From: Thermoplasmata archaeon | Lineage (GTDB): Archaea > Thermoplasmatota > Thermoplasmata > Lutacidiplasmatales > UBA184 | DNA length: 64,000 nt | Reading direction: 5' to 3' | Assembly (NCBI GenBank): GCA_027365105.1 | Contig: DAHXNZ010000006.1 | Coordinates: 1-64,000 of the forward strand | Part shown: in pieces, positions 58,558 through 61,065 of the stretch | Position numbering within the stretch: the stretch's first letter is position 1 | Layout: each line of letters opens with the position of its first letter | Made by a program: the position numbers and the translations under genes | The notes under the pieces: model-generated | What the model was told of the DNA's origin: nothing | Seen by the model: only the letters and a program-made list of their open reading frames with translations | The model's database searches: none

Positions 58558-58944
58558 ATGGCATGGACCACGCTCGAAGTCCGAGAGCTGAAGGAAGGTC
58601 GGTACATGATGATCGACGAGGAACCGTGTCGGATCCTCAGCATCCAGACCTCCAAACCGGGAAAGCACGGTGAAGCGAAAGCCCGGATCGATGCGGTCGG
58701 TCTCTTCGACGAGTCCAAGAAGAGCGTCGTGTTTCCCGTCAAGCACAAGGTGCAGGTTCCGATGATCGGCAAGCGCCAGGCGCAGGTGCTCTCGCTGTCC
58801 GGTTCGGAGGTCCAACTGATGGATCTCGAATCCTACGAGACTTTCTCACTCGGCGTCGACGACGAAACCAAGGCTCTGCTGAGCCCGGGCGGTGAGGTCC
58901 AGTACCTCGACGCCATGGGTCGGCGGCGGATCTCCCGGACCTGA
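58558..58944 (+). CDS. eif5A: Translation initiation factor aIF5A
   Basis: MAWTTLEVRELKEGRYMMIDEEPCRILSIQTSKPGKHGEAKARIDAVGLFD includes the hypusination loop SKPGKHG. Confidence 0.96.
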   Translation: MAWTTLEVRELKEGRYMMIDEEPCRILSIQTSKPGKHGEAKARIDAVGLFDESKKSVVFPVKHKVQVPMIGKRQAQVLSLSGSEVQLMDLESYETFSLGVDDETKALLSPGGEVQYLDAMGRRRISRT

Positions 58945-59501: not shown

Positions 59502-59603
59502 GCTCCCGTAGTCTAGTGGTCAAGGATAGGGGCCTCTCGAGCCCCTGACGCGGGTTCAAATCTGCCCGGCGGTCGTCGGGCAGGGAAACTCCCGCCGGGA
59601 GCA
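59502..59603 (+). tRNA. tRNA-Glu(CTC) interrupted by a 29-nt intron at 59561-59589 (T-loop, position 59/60)
   Basis: Acceptor GCTCCCG/CGGGAGC, D-arm GTCT-AGTGGTCAA-GGAT, anticodon arm GGGGC-CTCTCGA-GCCCC, T-arm GCGGG-TTCAAA[intron]T-CCCGC, discriminator A. Removing the intron gives a perfect 73-nt cloverleaf; CCA not encoded. Confidence 0.88.
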
Positions 59604-59653: not shown

Positions 59654-61065
59654 ATGGCCGAACGCCCGGGGACCGTGGAGAAGCGGCGCCGGCTCGAGGT
59701 TCCCGAGGTCCGTCGGTGGTACGAAAACGTCGCTCGGGGCTCCCAAATCCCGGCCGACGACTACCTCGAGGCGTTCCTCGCCCTCTTCCATCCCGAGTGG
59801 TCCAGCCGATCGCCCGGGCGTCGGGCTCCTCCGACGGCACCGCAAGCTCGATCCCGTCGCCTTCCTCTACACCCTCGCCGTCGAGACCGGTCCTCAGCTC
59901 CAGCAGACCGTCGGGGCCCTCCGCGAGGCCGACAACCGACGGGCCCCGGATCCGATCCTCGGCATGGGAGGGTTTTACTAGCGGTCCCCCCCGAACTTGT
60001 CGAGTTCCTCCGTCAATGTATCGCCTGCGGCCTCACCCAGCTTCGCGCCACTCCCGCGAACCGACTCACACCCAAGCTGGCCCGCTTCACCGGCCTCCTC
60101 ATCCAGGATTCCACCGTGATCCGACTCTTCGCCGCCCTCGCCAAGGTCTACCCGCCGACCCGACTCGCGAAGGACACAAAGTCGAACCGCACCGCCGGGG
60201 TCAAGGTGGCGACCCTGTTCAGCGCCCGGGCCAACGGCCCGGCCCGCCTCGAGCTGTTCCCCGAGACCACCTCCGAGGTCGACACGCCGAAGATCGGCCC
60301 GTGGGTCCAGGGCGCGGCCGTCCTCACCGACCTGGGCTTCTGCAAGCACCAGGGGTTCGCCCGTATCGAGGAGAACGGGGCTACTTCCTCTCCCGTCTCA
60401 AGGGCAACGCTAACCCGATCCGGATCGGCTCCAACCTCGCTCACCAGGGTCGTGCCATCGACCTCGAAGGGAAGCGGCGTTCGGAGATCGCTTCCCGACT
60501 CCACCGGGGGGTGCGCGATGCCGAGGTAAAGCGGTCGTTCCAGCGGCGCGAGCATCGCGGGAAGCGCCGAGGGGACACCCTTCGCGCCCGACGGGTCGCG
60601 GTCTGGGACGAAGAGCATCAGATGTACCACGCCTACGTCACCAACCTCCCGGTCGATGCTCTGTCGGCGGAGGGCGTGGCCGAACTATACCGAACCCGCT
60701 GGTCCGGGAATCTACTATTCAAAGAGGCGAAGGGATCATTCCATCTGGACCGTGTGGCGACCGGAAACCGCTACGGCGCGGAATCGCTGATCTGGACGTC
60801 GTGGCTGGCCCTGTTGGTCAGCCGCCGAGGGCACAGCGTGCTGCTCGAGCACCTCCCACCCGAGAGCGGTTCCGGCATCCTCCGCTGGGGTGGTCTCGGG
60901 TATTTCACGGCGAGTCAAGGGGGGTTCCCTGGCGCGCTATTTCAACGGCTGCGGCGGCGAAAAGTGGTACCGGACCCCATCGACGAGTTCGTGGGTTGGC
61001 TCGATGTTCGAGCCCGAGACCCGCACATCACCCGAGAGAGGTTCCGGGAGGGCTGGTTCGGCTGA
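59654..61065 (+). pseudogene. Decayed IS4-like DDE transposase
   Basis: Transposase-like sequence runs through three frames (HPEWSSRSPG / RHRKLDPVAFLYTLAVETGPQLQQTVGALREADNRRAPDPILGMGGFY* / PPELVEFLRQC...LLIQDSTVIRLF...VLTDLGFCKHQGF / YFLSRLKGNANPIRIG...ELYRTRWSGNLLFKEAKGSF), with stops and frameshifts. Confidence 0.75.

Follow-up and report, generated by a model that had tools for sequence, protein, structure and literature searches.

The window analysed here (64,000 nucleotides of a Thermoplasmata archaeon, contig DAHXNZ010000006.1 of assembly GCA_027365105.1) contains at positions 59502-59603 of the forward strand a tRNA-Glu(CTC) gene whose T-loop is interrupted by a 29-nt intron (59561-59589), at tRNA position 59/60. 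The 5' exon (59502-59560, with the anticodon CTC at 59536-59538) extends from the acceptor stem to T-loop position 59 and is readable through TTCAAA; the insert comes next, followed by TCCCGCCGGGAGCA. The 3' exon (59590-59603) is composed of T60, the T-stem strand CCCGC, the acceptor strand CGGGAGC and the discriminator A. Deletion of 59561-59589 in silico yields a standard tRNA-Glu(CTC), with a T-stem paired at 5/5 positions, a normal T-loop and an acceptor stem paired at 7/7. ARAGORN and Rfam both call a tRNA-Glu(CTC) at this place, and both set its 3' end to 59574, leaving a poor 3' side for the T- and acceptor stems. Upstream lies a gene for the translation factor IF5A (58558-58944). Downstream, at 59654-61065 and starting some 50 to 110 bases after the tRNA gene, two overlapping transposase-like reading frames, one of them with a DDE_Tnp_1 domain, are probably the remains of a broken insertion sequence.

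The interrupted structure is not due to chance: a rule combining the full T-stem, a central helix and an inner helix (described below) has one match in the window, at 59502-59603, for 0.03 expected in Markov-simulated windows. A covariance model of the T-arm gives E = 2.4e-11 at this locus, the sequence of which was part of its training set, and its next-best match within the window reaches only 16.8 bits.

The exon-intron junction takes the symmetric bulge-helix-bulge (BHB) form. Its outer helix is the T-stem itself, GCGGG/CCCGC (59550-59554 with 59591-59595, 5/5 pairs), as supported by in-silico folding, by register and by the T-arm model. The exon strand of the central helix is UUCA (T-loop positions 54-57, at 59555-59558) and its intron strand GGAA (59584-59587), an assignment based on register, on orthologues and on covariation in a set of 91 introns. 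Register also places the two 3-nt bulges, AAU (59559-59561, predicted cut after 59560) and ACU (59588-59590, predicted cut after 59589), and the inner helix CUGCCCG/CGGGCAG (59562-59568 with 59577-59583) is paired at 7/7 positions in the fold and recurs in orthologues. Both bulges are thus in register and helices flank them on both sides (hBHBh'), as the initial annotation had proposed when it described a BHB-like fold with three of four central pairs. The fourth central position, A57.G, is not a Watson-Crick pair, and with three such pairs the Glu-CTC junction departs from the textbook BHB with its 4-bp helix. In the minimum-energy fold the central helix is open, the fold in which it is closed being weaker by about 2.3 kcal/mol. 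In the same genome, the corresponding helix is fully paired (4/4) in the T-loop introns of Gly-TCC, Gln-CTG, Arg-TCG, Asp and His.

These belong to a larger set. A full-length model and the T-arm model together identified T-loop introns in 13 genes of this genome, those for Glu-CTC, Gln-CTG, Ala-GGC, Arg-TCT, Arg-TCG, Asp-GTC, Gly-TCC, His-GTG, Ser-CGA, Ser-GGA, Ser-GCT, Asn-GTT and Leu-TAG. Asn and Ser-CGA, although not used to train the full-length model, were matched by it; Ser-GGA, Ser-GCT and Leu-TAG were first found with the T-arm model, to which they were new. About one third of the tRNA genes, counted at some 41 in a set that was assembled from searches and may be incomplete (Trp, for example, is missing), therefore carry such an intron. 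Introns at 37/38 are present in three genes, Met, Tyr and Leu-TAA. Leu-TAG has a further insert in its D-loop, that is, two introns, and a tRNA-Arg(GCG) gene (G000:C146:24534-24602) has an insert between the acceptor stem and the D-arm. For most of the sister genes, too, splicing the T-loop intron in silico restores a standard tRNA.

The initial annotation had expected simple finders to overlook the Glu-CTC gene. They detect it, if with the wrong 3' end, but the expectation is justified for four of its sisters: at the Asp-GTC, Gln-CTG, Ala-GGC and His-GTG loci, the four to which it was applied, ARAGORN found nothing, and the Rfam search listed none of these four, nor Ser-GGA, Ser-GCT or Leu-TAG. 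ARAGORN also called a tRNA-Asp at another locus, which we discarded, since the real Asp gene is Asp-GTC with its T-loop intron. At ARAGORN and Rfam thresholds, such genomes can consequently seem to be devoid of tRNAs for Asp, His, Gln-CTG and Ala-GGC.

The trait is concentrated in one family. When 400 genomes sampled across the class were searched with the T-arm model at E <= 1e-5, with 15 candidates scored per genome, all 95 genomes of the family had at least 3 to 11 matches each; among the 305 others, 43 had 1 to 4 matches and the rest none. A sample of the phylum gave one match each in 10 genomes outside the family, and with fuller scoring single genomes reached up to 14 T-loop introns. Since T-loop introns in Arg-TCT are shared with three other families (f5, f21 and f22; some isotypes come from the intron mode of ARAGORN), this particular intron may be older.

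Which enzyme would process these introns? The genome has one gene for the splicing endonuclease EndA; the absence of an endonuclease able to cut a relaxed BHB had been named as an objection in the initial annotation. RtcB is encoded as well. Relatives of this EndA come from Thermoplasmata metagenome-assembled genomes, including the UBA184, AcS and SubAcS genomes, which are Ca. Lutacidiplasmatales (PMC9287336); the EndA of FK3.bin132 has 89% identity to it. By this kinship, rather than by a species tree, the host is a soil archaeon of the Lutacidiplasmatales lineage, in line with the Thermoplasmatota origin first guessed from the letters. EndA has 354 aa and two PF01974 domains, as in six relatives, and its triad Tyr292, His300 and Lys331 (numbered as in L126) is invariant in 34 sequences, aligns with that of A. 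fulgidus and belongs to the C-terminal one of two fused units. At the place of the Crenarchaea-specific loop (CSL), no insertion was found in EndA, which has the length of wild-type A. fulgidus there, in contrast to 3p1y with its inserted CSL; the ARMAN-specific loop (ASL) occupies an analogous place (PMC12397907). Judged from its sequence, EndA is thus devoid of both loops. The fold predicted for the closest relative, a monomer model with a pLDDT of 93, is nearest to 5x89 and 2gjw, with TM-scores (normalised to query length) of 0.87 for the M. kandleri fusion, 0.74 to 0.78 for full-length A. fulgidus chains and 0.63 to 0.64 for ARMAN. Given the two units in 354 aa and the lower score to ARMAN, we rejected the three-unit epsilon2 architecture; we take EndA to be an alpha'-type enzyme, which would be expected to act as an alpha'2 dimer.

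Published accounts describe alpha'2 enzymes as strict. The Glu-CTC junction could be spliced as a relaxed motif, requiring an endonuclease with a specificity loop, recognition of the full-length pre-tRNA or an unrecognised cofactor. The central helix of Glu-CTC does have only three Watson-Crick pairs, and the A. fulgidus alpha'2 enzyme cuts a bulge-helix-loop (BHL) in a full-length pre-tRNA, homodimeric enzymes being said to cut BHL-like motifs. However, nothing is inserted in EndA where the CSL would be, the junction has its two bulges and the helices on either side of them, and all four central pairs are formed in other T-loop introns of this archaeon. We regard this route as unlikely. Some BHL motifs are nevertheless open to cleavage by alpha'2 enzymes (PMC6379350, PMC8707768), whose strictness is therefore not absolute.

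Orthologues, which the initial annotation had suggested examining, were searched in 103 genomes of the same family, most of which gave full-length matches. In 74 of the 85 orthologues readable to the 3' end, an intron is found at the identical phosphodiester, and this, together with the in-silico splicing, bears out the position, the length and the boundaries first assigned to the insert. The Glu-CTC copy taken by itself leaves a one-nucleotide ambiguity of the cut site (T59561 = T59590); it is resolved by the orthologues, in which T60 is constant while the first intron base varies (T, G or A in 33, 21 and 19 cases). The exons are almost invariant, whereas the introns have diverged to 73 distinct sequences of 26 to 32 nt among the 74 loci, the hairpin being kept by compensatory changes. 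The two strands of the inner helix pair in 86.7% of cells, versus 66.3 +/- 1.6% (maximum 73%) when strands are re-dealt among loci and 24 to 55% when they are slid. In one of the final alignments, the hairpin loop was padded with N. Positions 54-56 are paired in nearly all orthologues; the base opposite position 57 is mostly G or U and only rarely a different one. The remaining 11 orthologues are cleanly intronless and come from other genera of the family (g2-g5): GCGGGTTCAAATCCCGC. The intron is thus present in genera g1, g6 and g7 and absent from g2-g5, a distribution that suggests that it was gained or lost as the family diversified. In one relative there are two Glu-CTC genes, whose introns are related yet different.

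A wider set of 91 T-loop introns from 19 genomes extends the pattern. The T-stem is always paired at 5/5 positions, and 54-56 are paired in all. The intron base facing position 57 (i-6) is C in 38 of the 42 genes with G57; in the 49 genes with A57 it is G (39 genes) or U (8), together 47. This covariation has a Fisher p of about 7e-20 for C, calculated on sequences that are not independent. The A.G combination of Glu-CTC at the fourth central position is therefore found in 39 of 91 introns. The two bases preceding the 3' cut, which have no pairing partner, are mostly AC, AA or AT, possibly reflecting a sequence preference of the endonuclease.

Could the hairpin instead stay in the mature tRNA, giving it an unusual, extended T-arm? 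Its stability and conserved shape would fit, but the sequence and length of its loop drift freely among orthologues, the 3' end of the intron is constrained by bases 54-57 in the way that splicing requires, and intronless orthologues exist. A T-loop of more than 30 nt would be unable to dock with the D-loop. We consider a retained hairpin very improbable, and rejected it on the evidence of the orthologues. On the same evidence we rejected a pseudogene or an assembly artefact, the chance of which is negligible: the transposase-like frames close downstream could be invoked in its favor, but the exons are nearly identical at 74 loci in separately assembled genomes, and searches of the 97.5% complete genome revealed no second intact tRNA-Glu(CTC), which the initial annotation had named, together with a lack of transcripts from this locus, as a possible refutation.

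With high confidence, we read the locus as a functional tRNA-Glu(CTC) gene whose T-loop holds an archaeal intron spliced by proteins, an endonuclease and a ligase. The intron must almost certainly be spliced out. In the precursor, T-loop bases 54-56 or 54-57 would pair with GGAA near the 3' end of the intron, forming a bulge-helix-bulge that may be seen as a geometric copy of the junction at 37/38: like canonical introns, it combines a 5-bp stem, a 7-nt loop whose first four bases enter a 4-position central helix, two 3-nt bulges and cuts after the second bulge base, and it differs from them in having the T-loop as host. A single alpha'-type EndA, presumably as the alpha'2 dimer, would cleave both bulges, and RtcB would ligate the exons into UUCAAA-U60. 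The same design recurs in many tRNAs of the lineage, whose T-loop introns share GAA near their 3' ends because UUC(R), which is near-universal, supplies the exon strand of the central helix. Given that the motif is nearly canonical even though its position is not, a strict enzyme should suffice. Against this spliced-intron reading we count the A.G at the fourth position, the absence of the central helix from the minimum-energy fold and the published strictness of alpha'2 enzymes.

As to how the introns spread, those of different tRNAs within one genome are no more similar (0.291) than unrelated pairs (0.289), so that nothing supports a recent copying of introns from one tRNA gene to another inside a genome; for the same tRNA across genomes, similarity is slightly higher (0.353). 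These values fit old gains followed by vertical descent. In Thermoproteales, by contrast, similar introns have been reported across tRNAs.

Position 59/60 is a listed site of non-canonical archaeal introns (PMC4090602), and T-loop introns as such are not new, most of them coming from Crenarchaeota. Within that group, introns at 59/60 and other non-canonical positions are reported chiefly from Thermoproteales (PMC4090602, PMC3218864). The crenarchaeal 59/60 introns resemble ours in position, BHB junction and otherwise normal tRNA gene; they differ from ours in that the present host is a Thermoplasmatota with an alpha'-type EndA, in which nearly all non-canonical introns found lie at the single site 59/60. 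Atabeyarchaeia and Freyarchaeia (Asgard, PMC11291895) likewise combine many non-canonical introns with a soil habitat, but 92 to 95% of their tRNA genes have introns and over half several, whereas here about one third do, mostly with a single T-loop intron. Reviews associate non-canonical introns with endonucleases of the (alpha beta)2 or epsilon2 type that carry special loops (PMC4090602, PMC4033280), and Euryarchaeota with alpha4 or alpha2 enzymes are described as having introns in less than 10% of tRNAs, one each and at the canonical position (PMC4090602), three thermophilic methanogens being noted as exceptions (PMC3218864). Korarchaeum, described as unique among archaea with an alpha2 enzyme in having non-canonical introns (PMC4033280), shares both the enzyme type and such introns with our lineage, but its enzyme has a specific loop where the present EndA has none. 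The literature searched contained no report of tRNA introns in the lineage (the word 'intron' is absent from the Lutacidiplasmatales paper, PMC9287336); some may already be on record in GtRNAdb or in the output of tRNAscan-SE 2.0, which includes models of the BHB.

The Glu-CTC intron is a real T-loop intron, very probably spliced; its kind is known, and the surprise lies in its host and its abundance. What is new is the lineage-wide concentration of T-loop introns at one site outside the anticodon loop, in Thermoplasmatota with a supposedly strict alpha'2 enzyme. We think it likely that this lineage has specialised in T-loop introns, which interrupt about one in three of its tRNA genes, and that it does so with an alpha'2 endonuclease devoid of the special loops. 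If so, the position of an intron would not be coupled to the specificity of the enzyme: a near-canonical BHB could be hosted by any loop of 7 nt that closes a 5-bp stem, and non-canonical introns need not imply an enzyme of broad specificity. In position, the lineage contradicts the 37/38-only rule for Euryarchaeota with alpha4 or alpha2 enzymes, and it offers a direct test of whether the motif or its position is limiting for the enzyme.
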